Assembly: GCF_026210795.1 (NCBI RefSeq)
Contig: NC_089438.1
Span: 2,811,501 to 2,875,500 of the forward strand
Direction of reading: 5' to 3'
DNA: 64,000 bases
Origin: Rhizophagus irregularis
Taxonomy: Eukaryota; Glomeromycota; Glomeromycetes; Glomerales; Glomeraceae
The notes under the pieces were generated by a model. It worked only from the letters and a program-made list of their open reading frames with translations. It was not told where the DNA came from and did not search any database. The translations under genes were made by a program, and so were the position numbers. Of the stretch, positions 1 to 60,270 are shown piece by piece; positions within the stretch are counted from its first letter, which is position 1; each line of letters opens with the position of its first letter.

Positions 1-3000
1 CTATAATTTAAACTGACTATATTATATATTAAATAATTTAGCTCGTAAGTTAATAGATTATCTTATAATTGAATTACTTATTTTTGTTATATTACATATA
101 ACTAAATAATTCATTTAATGATTAATAATACTATAGTTAGTAAGTTACTAGCTATTTATTTTTACTGTCATATATAAAATCCAAATAACCAATTCTTTAA
201 ATAATTATATAATAATTAATGTTGCTACAGATGGTGGGTTATTTAATTTTATTATATTTATATGATATTTATAATATTTCATATTAATAATACATTCCTT
301 ATTTGAATAATTAGATTGTAAGTTATATATTTAATTTTAAATATACATTGTAATATTCATATCCAACTAATTTTTCATCTAAAATTATGAATAATCAATA
401 ATGATATAGGGTGTAAGTTATTGTATCTTTTTTATATTTCTATTTATTTATACATTTTAAATTTAATTAACTGTAGTTCTTTATTTATGTATAGTTAATA
501 ATAATACAGTAGTTTGTAAGTTATGATTTATATAATAATGTAATAATTTATTTCATATAATTTAATTAACTAAATTTTTATTTATAAAAATTATTTGGTA
601 ATTTACTTTAGCTGGTAGGATATTTATTAATAATATCATTATATTTACATATATATATATATATATTGCTAAATTCTTCATTTAAAAATTTGTTTAATAA
701 TATAGGAGGTAAGTTATTTGTTTAATTATTCTTTTATTTATGTATATTCATATATAATATAAACTAACTAGGTTTTTATTTAAAATTATTTTAGATTGTA
801 ATTATTATTTGTTTAATTTTATTATTTTAGTAATTTAGATTTACTTTAATTTAAAATAATATGATTTTTTATTTAAAAATTATTTGATGACTTATTTAGT
901 TTGTAAGTTATAAATTATTTATTTAATTTATTTTTAATATATAAACTAATTTAAGTTTTATTTACAGACTGTAAGTCATAAGTTATATGTTATATTAGAA
1001 TAGTTACTACATAGAGTATACTAATATATTTAAATTTTTTATTTTGACAATTTACTTTAGTCAGTAAGTTATAAGTTATTTATTCATATATTAACATTTT
1101 AATATGAATTTAAATTAACCAAAACTTTATTTAAAAATTATTTTTAGATCGTAAGTTCTAAATAAGTTCAGTTATTTAATTAATTTTGTTGCAATTCTAT
1201 ATTAACATATAATTAATTTTTTCATTTAAAATTTATTTGTCAATTTATTTTAGTTGGTAAGTACAAGTTATTATTTTATATAAAATTAATCACATTTATA
1301 TTTATAAAATTTTTTAATTTATTATTATATATGTATTTAATTGCTTTAACTAAACTGATTAAACTTTTATTTAAATATTATTTAGATCGTAAGTTATATA
1401 ATTTTATTAATTAATTTTATTAAAATATGATTTAACTAAATTTTTTTTTATAAAACATTTATAGATGGTATGCTATACGAGCTATAAATTTTCATTTTAT
1501 ATTTAAAATATTTATGTACAATTATCTAAACTAATTAAATTTTTTATTTAAAATTGTTTGATAATTAGTCAGTAAGTAAATTTATATTATATATTAATTT
1601 ATTATATTTAATTTAAATGGCTAAATTTTTTTATTTAAACTATTTCAGATCGTAAGCTATTTACTTAATTTCAGTTTATTTTATATTATATATTTAATTA
1701 ATTAAATTTTATTTAAAAAATAATCAATACTAATAGAACGTAAGTTATAATTATCTATTAATTCTATTGTGTTTGCATAATACTTATATATAAATTAAAT
1801 TATCTAAATTCTTGATTTAAAAATTATTTAGATCGTAAGTTATATAATTTATTATATCTTACTATATTTACATATAATTTTAAATAACTTAAATATTTAA
1901 TTTCAAATTTTATTTTTATAATAGAAAGTAAGTCATAAAATTATTTATTTAATCTTATTATACTTATTATTAATATACTTATGTGATATTTAAATTAACT
2001 AATATTTTAAAATTTAATGATAATACAGGAAGTAAGTCATAAATTATTTATTTAATTTATTATATACTTATATGATATTCATATATAATTTCAACAATTT
2101 TTTTTTTTAAAAAAAATTGGTTAATAACTAATAATAGGAAGTAAGTTATAATTAATTATAATTACATATTATATTTATATATAATTTGAATTAACAATTT
2201 TTTTTGGATACTTAATTTACTATAGTTGGTAATTATAAATTATTTATTAAGTTTTATTATATTTACATAATGTTTATATATAATTAACTAATTCAATTTT
2301 ATTTAAAAAATTATTAATGATTTTCAGTTGGTATGTTATATATTATTTATTTATTTTATTATATATATACTAGTATATACTAAGTTGATTAAATTTGTTT
2401 AAAATTTTTTAGATTGTAAGTCATAAATTAGTATCTATTTGTTATATTATATTTATATAATATTAATGTTTGGTTTAAACTAATTAAATTTTTTATTTAT
2501 AATTGTGCTAGATTGTAAGTTATTCATTTAAATTTTTATAAATTATATTATTTAAGCTAATCAAATTCTTTATTAAAATTTTAGATTGTAAGTTATAAAT
2601 AATTATTACTTCTATTTTATAATAATCATAAATAAGTTAAACTAATTCGATTTTTTATTTTAGATAGTAAGTTAATTTAATTATTATATTATTTTATTTA
2701 TGCAATTTATACTAATTATTGAATGTTTATTTAATAACTATTTTAGATAGTAAGCTAAGTTATTTATTTAATTTATTATATTTATATACTAATTTATATA
2801 ATTTAAGCTAAATACATTTTATTAAAATATTGTTTGACAATATACAGTAGAAGGTAAATAATTGATAATATTTACATATAATTTAAACTAACTAAGTTTT
2901 TTATTAAATAATTGTTCGGTTTCTTATTTTAGAACGTAAGTTATAAGCTATTTATTAATTTGTTATTGATATTTATATAATGTTACATATAATTTGAACT

Positions 3001-3837
3001 AACTAAATTGGTTATTTAAAATTATTTGATAATCTATTTAGAACGTAAGTTTTAAATTATTTATTTAATTCTATTAATATATATTTATGTAATATTACAT
3101 AGTTTAAACTAATTAAATTCTTTATTTGATAATTTATTTAGAACGTAAGTTTTAAGTTACTTATTATTATATATTATAATATTTAGGCCATTTAAAACTA
3201 ATAATTAGTTTAATATCCTTTCTTGATGAAATAATTTAAATAATTTAAACAAATATGATAATTAAATTTTGGAAATTTTTGGTAAAATTGGAAATCTTTA
3301 GTACTACTAAATTTTAGAAAGAGAAGGTTGCTTTGAATATATTGGGTATATATGTTATGTTTTAATTTACTCTAAAGTTGAAGGGAAGGATGTTAAACTA
3401 AAAATTAATTTGGAATGGCTTTACATATAATTTAAACTAACCAAGTTCTTTATTTAAATAATTGTTTTGTGACTTATTTTAGAATGTATGTTATAAGTTA
3501 TTTAATTCTATTACTTTGTATAGTATTTTAAGTATTTTACTAATCAAATTTTTTATTTAATAATGTAGCATGTAAGTTATTATTTATATCTATTGTTATA
3601 TATTTATATAATAGTTATAGTTATATTAACTGAATTTATTATATTTAAAAAAATATTACATTAGTTGGTAAGTCATTAATTATAAATTAATTTATATACA
3701 AATTTATACAAAAACTAAGTTTATTTTTTTAAAAAATTATATTTTAATTTCATCAGAGTAAGTAATAATAATATTTTTTTTTAATTTTAAATTTTAATAT
3801 ATATTTTAATATAAATTAATATAAATTAAATTTATAG
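1..3837 (+). other. Array of 3-nt microexons separated by related introns
   Basis: Thirty-seven triplets each sit exactly between an AG acceptor and a GT donor; starts are 42, 137, 231, 315, 410, 513, 612, 706, 795, 900, 968, 1061, 1148, 1254, 1386, 1465, 1569, 1649, 1737, 1832, 1925, 2029, 2138, 2226, 2328, 2413, 2512, 2585, 2664, 2747, 2851, 2933, 3042, 3142, 3483, 3569, 3665. A 1-nt exon (A) lies at 3757. 28 of the 38 donors are GTAAGT. Introns are 65-129 nt except 3145-3482 (338 nt), and most carry a CTAAC/CTAAT-like branch site before a T-rich AG. AG and GTAAGT are conserved while the triplet varies. Read in phase 1 the triplets give an open frame with no stop that enters the kinase exon at 3838 correctly. 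Triplets 513 and 2851 follow CAGTAG double acceptors and could be 6 nt, also in frame. Splicing itself is inferred. The array probably starts left of the window. Confidence 0.75.
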
Positions 3838-5163
3838 ATTTGGAAAAAGTGGAAATGCAATTATAGATGATTTTATTTTTGAAAAGAGGTTAAAATGGAT
3901 TCCTTATAATAAATTTAAAAATGTTGAATATCTTGATAAAGGAGGATTTGGTACTGTATACAAAGCTATTTGGTCAAATAATAATGGAGATAGAGAAGTA
4001 ATTTTAAAATGTCATAATGATTTAAATGATAATAGTTTAAATGAATTTTTAAATGAAGTATGATAGTATATTATTTATTTTTTTTTAATTTAAATTATAA
4101 TTTATACTCATATTATTATTATTTTTTTTTATAGTGGAAATATCATGAAAGTTGCTTAAATTCATCTGAAATCATTAATTTTTATGGATTTACAAAAGAT
4201 CCAGATACATTAAGATATATGGTAGCAATGGATTGTGCAAACATGGGTAATTTAAGAGCAAATTTAACAAAATTAGTCGAAAATAATTGGAAACAAAAAT
4301 TACATATGTTGCATGATATTATTGCTGGGCTTAATGAGATACATAATCAAAATCTTATTCATTGTGACTTTCATGATGGCAATATTTTATTACATAATGA
4401 TGAGAATGGAGATAAAGTTTATATTAGTGATTTAGGACTATGTCGACCTGTAAAATCGTTTTTGAAAAAGCATAATATTTATGGTGTTATGACATTTATG
4501 GCTCCTGAAGTTTTAAAAGGCAACCCGTATACTCCAGCTAGTGATATATATAGTTTTTCTATGATTATGTGGGAATTTACGTCTGGGATATCACCATATA
4601 ATAATAGAGGACATGATATGGATTTTTGTTTAAGTATTTGTAACGGTGAACGTCCTGAAATTATTAAAAATTCTCCACAATGTTACGTAGATTTAATGAA
4701 AAAGTGTTGGAATGAAGTTCCATTAAACAGACCATCTTCTGAAGAAGTTTTAGATATTATTGAAAAATGGATTTTTCTCCCTTATGGAAAGAAAATCGAA
4801 GATATTAATGAAGAGTTAAAATGTAATGTTTTGGAATTTATAAATGCACCAATTGGACATAACAAACTTGCTACTAAATCTCATCCTAAAGCAAGTTATA
4901 CAAGTCTCTTATCTAATTTTACTAATAAAGAATTGAATAAAATTCCTGAAAGTGAAGATTCACAAGCGTATCATTCAAATTTGACTAAATTATTAGGTAT
5001 ATACTAAAATATAAAAATTAATCTTGTAAATTATTTATGCGAAATTAATTAATTTATTTATTATTATTTAGATGTAAATAATAGTGCAAAGTTGAATGAA
5101 ATTCTTGAATCTGAAATGAGTATGAATAATTGTAATTTGAATGATTATTTTTATATGGATTAA
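42..5163 (+). CDS. TKL-like protein kinase with a microexon-encoded N-terminus (5' partial)
   Basis: After the microexon array the exons are 3838-4057, 4135-4996 and 5072-5163 (TAA), with introns of 77 and 75 bp; the visible coding length is 427 residues. The array supplies about 37 residues ending in QQQSFE, which line up with NFEN/NFKN before the WTSGN block of the paralogues. Then follow the KWIPYN linker and the glycine loop GGFGTVYKA. The VILK lysine precedes the catalytic loop HCDFHDGN, and the metal motif is DLG. The APE segment is MAPEVL, and GISPYNN is in the C-lobe. HRD is HCD and DFG is DLG, as in several active members of this family. A Ser/Asn-rich tail follows. It is likely a cytosolic Ser/Thr-type signalling kinase; the substrate is unknown. 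The true start is off-window. Gene A is convergent with it, 0.95 kb away. Confidence 0.85.
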
Positions 5164-18718: not shown

Positions 18719-20305
18719 CAGTCCCCTCTCGATATAACGAACCCTAGGTTCCAGCTGATCAGGGCTTCGTTATAAGCAACTTCGTTAACACTATAACGAA
18801 TTATTCGGTATTGTATAATGAATTCTTCGGTATAGGAATATCGGTTATACAGATCATGTGACTTGTTGATCTGATTACCGATAATTTAACATTTTTTTAA
18901 ATCTTTTTTTTATAGGGGTGCTTTCTAAACTTCAAAATAGATGCCTAGAATGAGAAGTAAGTGGGAACTGGGGTTTTTTATATTAATTTCGTTTAAAAAC
19001 ATTTACTAATGTTCTTTTTTTTTTTTTTTATTGTAGGAAACTTCCTGGACTTCGAAATGGACGCCTGAGACGAGAAGTAAGTGGGGAACTCAATTTTTTT
19101 TATTTAAGAACATTTACTAGTGTTCTTTTTTTATTTTTTTATTATAGGGAACTTCCTGGACTTCGAAATGGACGCTTGAGACAAGAAGTAAGTGGGGAAC
19201 TCAATTTTTTTTATTAATTTCGTTTAAGAACATTTACTAATGTTCTTTTTTATTTTTTTTATTGTAGGGACTTCGAAATGGACGCTTGAGACAAGAAGTA
19301 AGTGGGGAACTCAATTTTTTTTATTAATTTCGTTTAAGAACATTTACTAATATTCTTTTTTATTTTTTTTATTGTAGGGACTTCGAAATGGACGCTTGGG
19401 ACAAGAAGTAAGTGGGACAACTCAATTTTTTCTTTTAATTTCGTTTAAGAACATTTACTAATGTTCTTTTTTATTTTTTTTTATTGTAGGGACTTCGAAA
19501 TGGACGCTTGAGACAAGAAGTAAGTGGGACAACTCAATTTTTTCTTTTAATTTCGTTTAAGAACATTTACTAATATTCTTTTTTATTTTTTTTATTGTAG
19601 AAACTTCGAAATGAACGCTTGAGATAAGAAGTAAGTGGGACAACTCAATTTTTTCTTTTAATTTCGTTTAAGAACATTTACTAATGTTCTTTTTTTATTT
19701 TTTTATTATAAGGAATGCTTCCTGAAGTGTTCTATATAAAAATGTTTATTATAATTCCTTTTTTTTGTAGGAATGCTGTTTAACAATAACTGACTATATA
19801 ATAAATAAATTATTAATGATATATTAATTTAACTAGGAGTGTCCTTACCCCTGTGATAAATATAAATTAATAACAATTCACATCGAATCCTAATACAACC
19901 GAATTAATGTAAATTAATGTAATTCTGCCTAAATATTAAATAAAATAGCCAGAATTATTAATCCTGATACGATCCTGATACAATCCTGATCCATAATTTA
20001 AATATAAAACACAGGGTGATATTTAATGTCATAATGCATCAATATTTATTAATAATTACATTTAATTATAAAGAAATTCTTCGTTATAACTGAAAAAAAT
20101 TCGTTATAAAAAAAATCCGTTATATCGAGAGGCATTTTTATATAAGAAATTCATACACTTTACTTCGTACTATGTTATATGGTAAATAAATAGTAAACTT
20201 CGTTATATCAAGGTTTTTTTCATATTTAAAATCAGTACCACACTGTATGATCCGTTATATCGTGTTATTCGCTATATCGAGGTTTGCTGTAGAGAGGGGT
20301 AACTG
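18719..20305. mobile_element. Non-autonomous pogo/Tigger-like DNA transposon
   Basis: The ends read CAGTCCCCTCTC at the left and its approximate inverse GAGAGGGGTAACTG at the right. A TA duplication flanks it (18717-18718, 20306-20307), as in pogo/Tigger elements. Subterminal regions repeat ATAACGAA-type palindromes (18740-18850 and 20070-20285). There is no transposase. The centre holds a tandem array of intron-plus-mini-exon units (separate entry). Fragments of the same subterminal sequence occur at 35.4-36.45 kb. Confidence 0.65.
18916..19630 (+). repeat. Tandem intron-exon repeat inside the pogo-like element
   Basis: Seven units, each an exon-like block followed by GTAAGTGGG, a TTTACTAAT branch-like site, a T-rich run and TAG. 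Exon-like blocks: 18916-18956, 19037-19076, 19148-19187, 19268-19297, 19378-19407, 19490-19519, 19601-19630 (41, 40, 40, then four of 30 nt). The spacers are 71-82 bp. The 30-nt blocks read GLRNGRLRQE or close to it, in a frame kept from unit to unit. The last unit is followed by a degenerate one near 19710. Splicing is inferred from the signals only. Confidence 0.6.
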
Positions 20306-51960: not shown

Positions 51961-53720
51961 AGCGCGGACATTTTTGTCCTCATAATTTGAGGACATTTCT
52001 GTCCTTGTAACTTGAGGACAATTTTATCCTCGTAATTAAGGCCATTGTTGTCCTTGTAAATTGAGTATATTTTGTCCTTGCAACTTTGAGGACATTTTTG
52101 TCCTCGCAACTATGAGGACATGATTTTTGTCCAACTATAAGGACACTTTTGTCCTCATATTTAAGAACATTTCTGTCCTTGTAACTTGAGGACAATTTTG
52201 CCCTTGCAATTGAGGATATTTTGTCCTTATAATTAAGGATATTTTTGTTCTTGTAATTGAGAACATTTTTGTCCTTGTAATTGAGGACATTTCTTTTTTT
52301 GTCCTTGTAATTAAGGACATTGTTATCCTCATAATTTGAGGACATTTCTGTTCTTGTAATTTGAGGACAATTTTGTCCTTGTAATTGAAGGCATTTTTGT
52401 CCTTAATTGAGGACATTTCCGTCTTCGTAATTTGAGGATATTTCTGTTCTTGTAATTTGAGGACATTTTTGTACTTGCAATTGAGGACATTGTTATCCTC
52501 ATAATTTGAGGACATTTTTGTCCTTGCAATTGAGGACATTTTTGTCCTTGCAATTTTGTCCTTATAATTTGAGGACATTTTTGTCCTTGTAATTAAGGAC
52601 ATTGTTATCCTCATAATTTGAGGACATTTCTGTTCTTGTAATTTGAGGACAATTTTGTCCTTGTAATTGAAGACATTTTTATCCTTAATTGAGGACATTT
52701 CTGTCCTTGTAATTGAGGACATTTCTGTTCTTATAATTTGAGGACATTTTTGTCCTTGCAATTGAGGACATTTTTGTCCTCATAATTTGAGGACATTTTT
52801 GTCCTTGTAATTAAGGACATTATTATCCTCATAATTTGAGGACATTTTTGTCCTCATAATTGAGAACAATTTTGTTCTTGTAATTGAGAACATTTCTGTG
52901 TAATTTGAGAACATTTTTGTCCTTGTAATTAAGAACAATTTTGTTCTTGTAATTGAGGATATTATTTTCTCATTGTTATCCTTGTAAATTTGAAGACATT
53001 GCTATTTTTGTAATTTGAAGACATTTTCTGTTCTTGTAATTTGATGACTTTTTGTTTTTATAATTAAGGACAATTTTGTCCTTATAATTGAAGACATTTT
53101 TGTATTTAATTGAGAACATTTCTGTTTTTGTAATTAAGGGACATTGTCATTTTCATAATTTGAGAACATTTCTGTTCTTGTAATTGTAGACATTTTTCCT
53201 TGTAATTGAGGACATTTTTGTTCTTGTAATTTAGGATATTTTTGTCCTCATAATTTTGAGGACATTGTTATCCTCATAATTTGAGGATATTTTTATTCTC
53301 ATAATTTTAAGGACATTTTGTTCTCAAAATCTTTACATTTTTGTCCTTATAAATTTGAGGATATTGTTACTCTCACAATTTGAGAATATTTTTGTTCTCA
53401 TAATTTAAGGACATTTTTGTTTTTGTAATTTTGTTTACATAATTTGAAGACTCATAATTTAAGGACATTTTTGTCCTCATAATTTGAGAATATTGTTATT
53501 CTTGTAATTTTGAGGAAAACAATTTTATCTTCATAATTTTGAGAATATTTTTTTTCTCATAATTTTGAGGATATTTTATCCTTATTTTAGTCTTTGTAAT
53601 TTTGAGAACATTGTCATTCTCATAACTTGAGGTTATCTTTGTTCTTATATGTTCTCATAACTTGAAGGCATTTTTACCTTGTAACTTGAAGACATTTTTC
53701 CACTTAAATATTTGAGATTA
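51961..53720. repeat. Left subterminal array of GAGGACATTTTTGTCCTC palindromes
   Basis: Some fifty to seventy degenerate copies of GAGGACAT-TTTTGTCCT units separated by TAATT-type spacers. They are most regular near the TIR and decay toward the core. Apparent long frames with 'MSSITRTKMSS'-like repeats are translations of the repeat, not genes. Confidence 0.8.
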
Positions 53721-58930: not shown

Positions 58931-60270
58931 ATACAAATTATGAGGACAAGAATGTCCTCAAAGTTACAAGAACAAAAATATGAGAACAAAAATGTTCTCA
59001 AAATTATGAGGATAACAATGTCCTCAAAATTATAAGGACAAAAATATCCTTAAATTTACAAGGACAACAGTCCTCAAAATTATAAGGACAAAAATATCCT
59101 TAAATTTACAAGGACAACAGTCCTCAAAATTATGAGGACAAAAATGTCCTCAAGTTATAAGAACAAAAATGTCCTTAAACTACAAGAACAAAGTGTCATC
59201 AAGTTACAAGAATAGAAATGTCCTCAAATCATGAAGACAAAAATTTATGAGGACAAAAATGTCCTTAAAATTACAAGGACAAAAAATTAACAATATTTAC
59301 AGTTACAAGAACAAAAACGTCCTCATAATTGTGAGGACAAAAATGTCCTCAAAGTTGCAAGGTTAATAATATCTTCAAATTTATAAGGACAAAAATGTTA
59401 AGAAACAAGATTTTGAGGACAAAAATATCTTCAAATTTACAAGAATAAAATGTTCTCAAAGTCACAAGGACAAAAATATGAGGACAAAAATGTTCTCAAA
59501 ATAATGAGGACAAAATGTCCTCAAATTTATGAGGATGAAAATATCAAGATTTTGAGGACAAAAATGTCCTCAAAATGAGGACAAAATATCCTTAAATTTA
59601 CAAGAACAACAATGTCCTCAAAATTATGAGGACAAAATGTCATCAAGTTCCAAGAACAGGAATGTTCTCAAATTACAAGAACAATAATGTCCTCAAATTA
59701 TGAGGACAAAAATGTCCTTAAATTACATGGACAAAAAATTAATAATGTCTCATAGTTGTGACTTGTGAGGACAAAAATCATGTCCTTATAGTTGTAAGGA
59801 CAAAAATGTCCTCAAAGTTGCGAGGACAAAAATTATGTCCTCATAGTTGCAAGGACAAATATCATATCCTCATAGTTGCGAGAATAAAAATCATGTCCTT
59901 ATAGTTGCAAGAACAAATATCATGTCCTCAAAGTTGTGAGGACAATTATTATGTCCTCATAGTTGCGAGGACAATTACCATGTCCTCATAGTTGCGAGGA
60001 CAAAAATCATGTCCTCATAGTTGCGAGGACAAAAATCATGTCCTCATAGTTGCGAGGACAAAAATCATGTCCTCATAGTTGCGAGGACAAAAATCATGTC
60101 CTCATAGTTGCGAGGACAAAAATCATGTCCTCATAGTTGCGAGGACAAAAATCATGTCCTCATAGTTGCGAGGACAAAAATCATGTCCTCATAGTTGTGA
60201 GGACAAAATCATTTCCTCAAAATTGTGAGGACAAAAATGTCCTCAAAATATTGAGGGCAAAAATGTCCGC
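58931..60270. repeat. Right subterminal array, inverted relative to the left
   Basis: Repeats of GAGGACAAAAATGTCCTC with AAATTAT-type spacers. Next to the right TIR (about 59995-60200) the unit becomes a 29-bp repeat containing GAGGACAAAAATCATGTCC, in about seven nearly perfect tandem copies. This indicates recent homogenisation. Confidence 0.8.

Follow-up and report, generated by a model that had tools for sequence, protein, structure and literature searches.

Consecutive three-nucleotide exons predicted in a protein-kinase gene of Rhizophagus irregularis, with sister arrays across the genome

Many tiny, symmetric exons are found in fast-evolving gene families such as the micro-exon genes of Schistosoma and the bicycle genes of aphids; their exons are larger than single codons and are not known to form long single-codon runs. 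The nearest parallel to what we describe here is the set of codon-sized exons in the NACHT-ANK (nank) genes of Tuber melanosporum, for which Iotti et al. (2012) is reportedly the source. As far as the available text of four papers goes, these genes contain dozens or tens of such exons and are said to be alternatively spliced (PMC10197012, PMC4986451, PMC9815663, PMC3689799). Accessible parts of other papers report proven single-nucleotide exons in plant APC11 and VPS55 (PMC4674806, PMC8831610) and, in fungal NLRs, hypervariable positions set within highly conserved repeats (PMC9815663, PMC4986451), and mention bicycle effectors (PMC11333574). We analysed a window of 64,000 nucleotides (nt) of the arbuscular mycorrhizal fungus Rhizophagus irregularis (assembly GCF_026210795.1, contig NC_089438.1, forward strand; G000:C10:2811501-2875500; G+C 25%), "the window" meaning this whole stretch, at the left end of which lies an array of 37 putative 3-nt exons closed by a putative 1-nt exon. 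The initial annotation of the window had taken a long run of 3-nt exons to be without known precedent, which the Tuber nank genes contradict. As in those genes, according to the text available, dozens of 3-nt exons would occur here in an expanded, diversifying fungal family, and the frame is kept whatever is included; however, the Tuber genes are ascomycete NLR genes, described as alternatively spliced, with the exons in a C-terminal recognition domain, whereas ours belong to Glomeromycota, encode protein kinases and an AIG1 GTPase, carry the exons in an N-terminal segment, close the kinase arrays with a 1-nt exon, have more than 100 strict array ends, and yield a sequence test whose outcome favours the ordered inclusion of every unit. 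Neither for the window gene (PF07714/PF00069) nor for the second, GTPase gene is a NACHT or ankyrin match listed. Among the papers listed by a literature search, with most subscription papers outside it, none was seen to report exons of this kind from Rhizophagus or another arbuscular mycorrhizal fungus. Hence, the phylum, the protein families, the scale, the closing 1-nt exon, the sequence proof of phase and the contrast between introns and codons look new, while the kind itself is known.

Judged from the DNA, it is highly likely that window positions 1-5163 form the main part of one protein-kinase gene, in which a run of 37 exons of 3 nt, followed by a single exon of 1 nt, would encode the variable N-terminal segment (residues about 108-145 of 535). 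On the forward strand between positions 42 and 3667 the full set of 37 AG-NNN-GT units was recovered, at the spacing of about 95 base pairs (bp) that the initial annotation had given. The putative triplet exons, listed by first base, are 42 CTC, 137 TTA, 231 ATG, 315 ATT, 410 GGT, 513 TTT, 612 CTG, 706 GAG, 795 ATT and 900 TTT; 968 ACT, 1061 TCA, 1148 ATC, 1254 TTG, 1386 ATC, 1465 ATG, 1569 TCA, 1649 ATC, 1737 AAC and 1832 ATC; 1925 AAA, 2029 GAA, 2138 GAA, 2226 TTG, 2328 TTG, 2413 ATT, 2512 ATT, 2585 ATT, 2664 ATA and 2747 ATA; and 2851 AAG, 2933 AAC, 3042 AAC, 3142 AAC, 3483 AAT, 3569 CAT and 3665 TTG. Steps between units measure 68-132 bp, with one exception of 341 bp that arises because one of the 36 array introns (together spanning 45-3664) is 338 nt long (3145-3482), the others being 65-129 nt. 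Donors are mostly GTAAGT (exactly so in 28 of the 38 window donors, counting the one after the 1-nt exon). The motif AG-NNN-GTAAG occurs 29 times in positions 1-3838, against a mean of 0.08 and a maximum of 2 in 300 dinucleotide shuffles, and among gaps of 0-39 nt between AG and GTAAG only that of 3 nt is enriched (29 cases, every other gap at most 3). The 338-nt intron contains an inserted-looking stretch unlike the remaining introns.

The triplets are read in phase 1, in which the last base of the preceding triplet supplies the first codon base; each triplet would complete one codon with its first two bases and open the next with its third, so that every codon of the segment would straddle an intron. 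Read in this way they spell ALNDWFSGDFYF...QQQSFE and, as first proposed, remain open into the kinase frame at 3838 through the single A at 3757 (AG-A-GTAAGT, forward strand), the 1-nt exon that restores the frame. An alignment of this ending with NFEN or NFKN before WTSGN in paralogues of the same window had also been proposed; NFKN is present but NFEN is not, and the likeness is a short motif match only, the three WTSGN places being RFKDNFKN-WTSGN (17001, reverse strand), DPRRIMKG-WTSGN (46325, forward) and QIEENLTK-WTSGN (63483, reverse). To the left of the window, where the initial annotation had suggested looking for the true start, lie exon 1 (MGQRLSKYRKKKRIRKDK; L031:9519-9573) and the 267-nt exon 2 with Glu-rich repeats (L031:9653-9919), both ending in phase 1; L031 position 9999 is the base directly left of window position 1, and window positions 1-41 would be the last part of the intron that separates exon 2 from the first triplet. 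To the right, on the forward strand, follow the first large kinase exon (3838-4057, FGKSGNAIIDDFIFEKRLKW...), the exon of the catalytic core (4135-4996) and the last coding exon up to the stop codon TAA (5072-5163). Exons 1 and 2, the 37 triplets, the 1-nt A and the three kinase exons join into a single open frame of 535 amino acids from ATG, containing a kinase domain (PF07714, E 1.4e-42; PF00069, E 1.4e-37) with the SGN...LKWIPY...GGFGT signature of the R. irregularis kinase-like expansion. A similarity search gave 153 proteins at E <= 0.01, and the names among the 120 matches listed are those of Rhizophagus kinases.

The sister gene c1_4543, with 56 triplets, joins likewise into an open frame of 926 amino acids, and in both genes exon 2 ends in phase 1, so that an exon of exactly 1 nt is required ahead of the kinase exon. 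When the triplets of the window gene are omitted and the A is kept, the frame is intact; when the A is omitted too, it breaks. Plant APC11 and VPS55 resemble this, as the available text describes them, in having a 1-nt exon that the frame requires, in VPS55 with a strong donor; however, the plant exons are isolated and lie in conserved genes, whereas this one closes an array of 3-nt exons in a pattern that recurs 109 times. In c1_4543 (L041/L042) the array kinase is followed by a long region resembling a coiled coil. Exon 1 begins with MGQ in the window gene, L058, c1_1860 and c1_2286, and with MAQ in c1_4543 and c2_15; the MGQ start presumably resembles an N-myristoylation signal. In c1_2286 (L039, reverse strand) the exon that follows the 1-nt exon appears to be damaged, and this copy may therefore be a pseudogene.

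Such arrays recur throughout the assembly (146.7 Mb, 32 contigs). With the same patterns read backwards as control, the strict two-step unit pattern gave 2,907 matches (control 22), the one-step pattern of strict unit pairs 4,220 (116), the strict array end, a TTG unit followed by the 1-nt exon, 109 (0), and the strict array start, CTC then TTR, 53 (0). Two samples were taken: all eight other loci among the first listed two-step matches, which extend only into contig C2 and of which seven have the intron family of the window and one does not, and the ten best kinase matches, among which L048 was replaced by the longer L058. Units were picked by splice signals alone, ignoring frame, as chains ending at an AG-A-GTAAG site. 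The resulting set for the window's intron family comprises 18 loci, the window included, with 441 triplets; nine of the loci are represented by 3-kb pieces, which cover no more than about 1.5 kb of the array end. The window and its sister arrays contain dozens of consecutive putative 3-nt exons separated by GT-AG introns: in the eight arrays obtained at full length, the window's with its 37 included, there are 18 to 64 units (28-64 in six of the seven others, all from C1 and C2, and 18 in the seventh) and very different middles. Their ends are more alike. CTC is the first triplet in six of the eight, namely in the window (42-44) and in five of the seven sisters, and [DN]W[FYW] appears among the first decoded residues in six (c1_2430 and c1_4543 excepted); the last triplet before the 1-nt exon is TTG in 15 of the 18 loci, TTA in two and another in one. 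Since a CTC-first array is common among the sisters and the CTC-then-TTR start recurs genome-wide, the array very probably starts at the window edge.

The order of the triplets carries a coding constraint. If the triplets are joined and read in phase 1, none that ends in T can stand directly before one starting with AA, AG or GA without creating a stop, and among the 393 neighbouring pairs kept from the 18 loci (pairs more than 140 nt apart being excluded) not one forms a stop at its junction codon, against a mean of 18.5 and a minimum of 9 in 2,000 order shuffles. Triplets starting with AA, AG or GA follow T-ending ones in 0 of 108 cases and others in 72 of 285 (Fisher p = 5e-12); the avoidance holds among distinct pair types (0/48 vs 45/150, p = 5e-7), without the window (0/97 vs 63/261, p = 2e-10) and with exact GTAAGT donors only (0/72 vs 54/207, p = 1e-8), is gone in reversed order (18/96 vs 56/297, p = 0.56), and between units two apart leaves no significant deficit (14/88 vs 56/270, p = 0.20). 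The window array alone is a weak case, its order shuffles averaging only 3 junction stops, and the weight of the test therefore lies with the sister loci. Moreover, the codon-position log-likelihood, taken against 1,020 kinase-exon codons, is +87 bits in phase 1, -215 in phase 0 and -192 in the remaining phase, so that phase 1 alone fits. The array introns of the 18 loci have a median length of 92 nt, with lengths evenly spread modulo 3, and no non-coding cause for a junction rule acting across them is apparent. These results bear directly on the possibility that the region is an AT-rich satellite or minisatellite with chance splice-like motifs, wholly intronic or untranscribed, in which the triplets mean nothing. 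The units are indeed tandem and alike, parts of them are called by Tandem Repeats Finder (TRF), and c1_4543 has a public model that begins within the kinase exon; but a satellite gives no reason for a rule that links positions about 95 nt apart and is lost in the order controls, the order and content of the triplets are not free of coding constraint, the triplets vary while AG, GT and the introns are conserved, and skipping the whole region together with the 1-nt exon breaks the frame. We rejected the satellite on the junction order test and its controls and consider it very improbable.

The splice signals are consistent with a gene built codon by codon. Across the 18 loci 387 of 459 donors are GTAAGT, and 369 of the 391 GTAAGT in the array spans have AG exactly 3 nt upstream; a CTRAY branch-point-like motif lies 10-70 nt before the acceptor in 241 of 345 array introns from all loci, and 403 of 410 introns, if retained, would introduce a stop codon in frame. 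By intron definition the spliceosome would take out the introns successively, relying on the strong GTAAGT donors. These would compensate for the missing exon, since 3 nt leave no room for exonic signals or for two complexes simultaneously. The inclusion of all triplets would be the functional form under selection, because stops are avoided between neighbours and not between units two apart. Possibly the triplets are instead optional, massive alternative skipping giving rise to combinatorial isoforms, as proposed for the Tuber nank genes. Any skip would be frame-safe because every unit is 3 nt long, the window frame is open also with all 37 skipped and the 1-nt exon kept, and the public protein P0030 lacks at least five of the 35 units found in its locus. 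However, the avoidance is confined to neighbours, units two apart forming stops in 14 of 358 cases (p = 0.20), and gene models such as P0030 are not transcripts; we find optional triplets rather unlikely and favour full inclusion. If the genes are spliced as their sequence says, 37 to 70 three-nucleotide exons, with a 1-nt exon in the kinases, are joined in a non-ascomycete fungus, and the limits of intron definition and of exon size become directly testable.

Public gene models provide further evidence on whether and how the triplets are joined. GenBank P0030 matches L058, and all 30 of its residues between exon 2 and the kinase, read in phase 0, recur exactly and in the same order among the 35 triplets found at that locus, whereas order shuffles reach at most 16. 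Hence, such exons are already strung together in one existing model, the phase used there being rejected by the junction and composition tests. Stretches similar to that of P0030, at the protein level only, occur in P0045, P0046, P0047 and P0054 of R. irregularis and in P0003 and P0052 of R. diaphanus, with no 7-residue word common to these six and the arrays analysed. The phase-1 triplet sequence of the window gene was not seen among the public proteins listed (query region 90-240), where P0006, P0014, P0030 and P0064, covering 98-100% of the region, carry exon-2-like Glu-rich stretches and not the window triplets; that of c1_4543 was likewise not seen in its six public matches, each covering 27% of the region. 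The proposal of the initial annotation, a coding region split into codon-sized exons that are read in phase 1 and followed by a 1-nt exon, is thus supported by the joined frame, the junction-stop avoidance, the phase-1 composition and the GenBank model of a sister locus.

Several points weigh against this reading. The case for joining the triplets is built on DNA sequence and gene models; the chains were anchored on their AG-A-GTAAG end, so that the 1-nt exon in the 18 loci is no independent finding; some units, chiefly in c2_15, have weak donors, and several arrays have gaps where a unit was possibly missed or lost. The model P0123 (OCT59_000931), made on this assembly, starts c1_4543 inside the kinase exon. 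The annotation of PMC10234402 used long reads, P0123 presumably being part of it, and in the accessible text of this long-read-informed work on the species such exons are not mentioned. A contiguous homologue of the segment that the triplets encode would show its ancestral form, but none that convinces was found in the assembly. Finally, phase 0 is equally free of stops (0 of 441 triplets), and the triplet-containing GenBank models use it, passing to the kinase through an apparent 5-nt exon, AGTAA, and not through the 1-nt exon. The triplets would then be exons translated in phase 0, which is also suggested by stretches, either hydrophobic or rich in glycine, that end with SK ahead of FGKSxN in P0030, P0045, P0046, P0047, P0054 and P0003. 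The phase-0 gap goes beyond stops, because TAN triplets are wholly absent and TGN occurs once, as TGG, among the 441. However, phase 0 does not predict the avoidance at the junctions, has the worst codon-position fit, disagrees with exon 2 ending in phase 1 in both kinase genes joined in full, and needs an AGTAA donor that sits inside GTAAGT and is less consensus-like. The phase of the GenBank models was therefore rejected on junctions and codon composition, and we regard it as highly improbable. Under phase-1 splicing at least some public models of the kinase family would lack the N-terminal part or be in the wrong phase.

The triplets vary while the introns around them are uniform. In 42 unit pairs whose flanking introns average 94-97% identity the triplet is identical in only 21%, differing at positions 1, 2 and 3 in 45, 48 and 67%, and in 17 pairs with introns more than 97% identical it is the same in 76%; the switch between conserved and variable is sharp at the preceding AG and the following GT. 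The third triplet base, which is the first codon base, uses A, C, G and T evenly (2.00 bits). Near-identical introns stand at many sites, the identity of unit pairs averaging up to 99% across loci and reaching 100% within a locus. One alternative is an origin by introner-like insertion between the codons of a contiguous gene, and not by unit duplication and diversification; the low share of common triplets in the 42 pairs would fit, as would the adjacent identical triplets being barely enriched (53/423 vs 43 expected), a count on which we rejected the view that triplets arose mainly through tandem duplication of single units. Unlike introners as the accessible text of PMC9860276 describes them, which are likewise many near-identical introns at many sites, the introns here are tandem and 3 nt apart, and there is no sign that they entered an ancestor whose coding sequence was contiguous. 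Targeting would have to be extreme for introns to insert every 3 nt and always in one phase, and in c1_4543 units 28 and 30-32 are near-identical to 42 and 46-48, with identical triplets, which points to block duplication inside the array. Searches of the assembly by tblastn for a contiguous relative of the window or second-gene segment, of low power with such short queries, gave nothing convincing, one having no candidate and the other a single match (E 0.1) that contains a stop. We therefore favour homogenised introns with diversifying codons, an introner-like origin being possible but unlikely.

The segment may thus evolve by unequal exchange or conversion between interchangeable introns, together with diversifying selection on the codons, so that the N-terminal segment would differ from one sister kinase to the next, while its two ends are more conserved (often [DN]W[FYW] close to the start and FE at the finish). 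Fungal NLR repeats, in the text available, likewise combine a homogenised frame with hypervariable codons, which fits unequal exchange and selection; there, however, the conserved frame is protein, whereas here it is intron, spliced away to leave one codon per repeat. Perhaps the variable segment serves the recognition of partners or of non-self, a guess made from its hypervariability and the truffle parallel. More tentatively, we speculate that single-codon exon shuffling could operate genome-wide, at more than 100 loci, in kinase genes at nearly all family loci examined and in at least one unrelated GTPase gene: each hypervariable N-terminal codon would sit in its own cassette of a 3-nt exon and an interchangeable intron, and recombination between introns would add, remove or swap codons without harm to the frame, supplying the signalling kinases of a multinucleate symbiotic fungus with a repertoire of recognition segments. 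A protein could in this way be diversified by single amino acids through a concrete mechanism at the DNA level, and this would be relevant to an organism with many nuclei and partners, in which recognition matters.

The GTPase gene lies at C1:1722000-1738000 (L035/L036) and has 70 triplets in phase 2, with a different intron family (acceptor AATTACCAG, donor GTAAGT or GTGAGT); at one of the 70 the acceptor is CAA and not AG. An adjacent 26-nt exon, picked by eye as keeping the frame, was preferred to a 71st candidate triplet (TTA). The 70 triplets, the 26-nt exon and a long exon give a frame of 1007 amino acids with a proline-rich N-terminus, a coiled-coil-like stretch and an AIG1 GTPase domain (PF04548, E 2.2e-17); two public relatives have a different N-terminus. 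Its order test is weak (0 junction stops vs 1.6 expected, p = 0.04). As read, the start codon is split across the first two triplets.

Other repeats are present in the window. At 18974-19714 about six near-identical, exon-like units of 30 nt (GGACTTCGAAATGGACGCTTGAGACAAGAA, open as GLRNGRLRQE) stand in tandem with a period of 111, each followed by an intron-like GTAAGT...TTGTAG stretch, and resemble the triplet theme with larger exons. Large minisatellites with a 24-29-bp unit, GGACATTTTTGTCC..., occupy 51966-53585 and 58973-60238 in opposite orientations.

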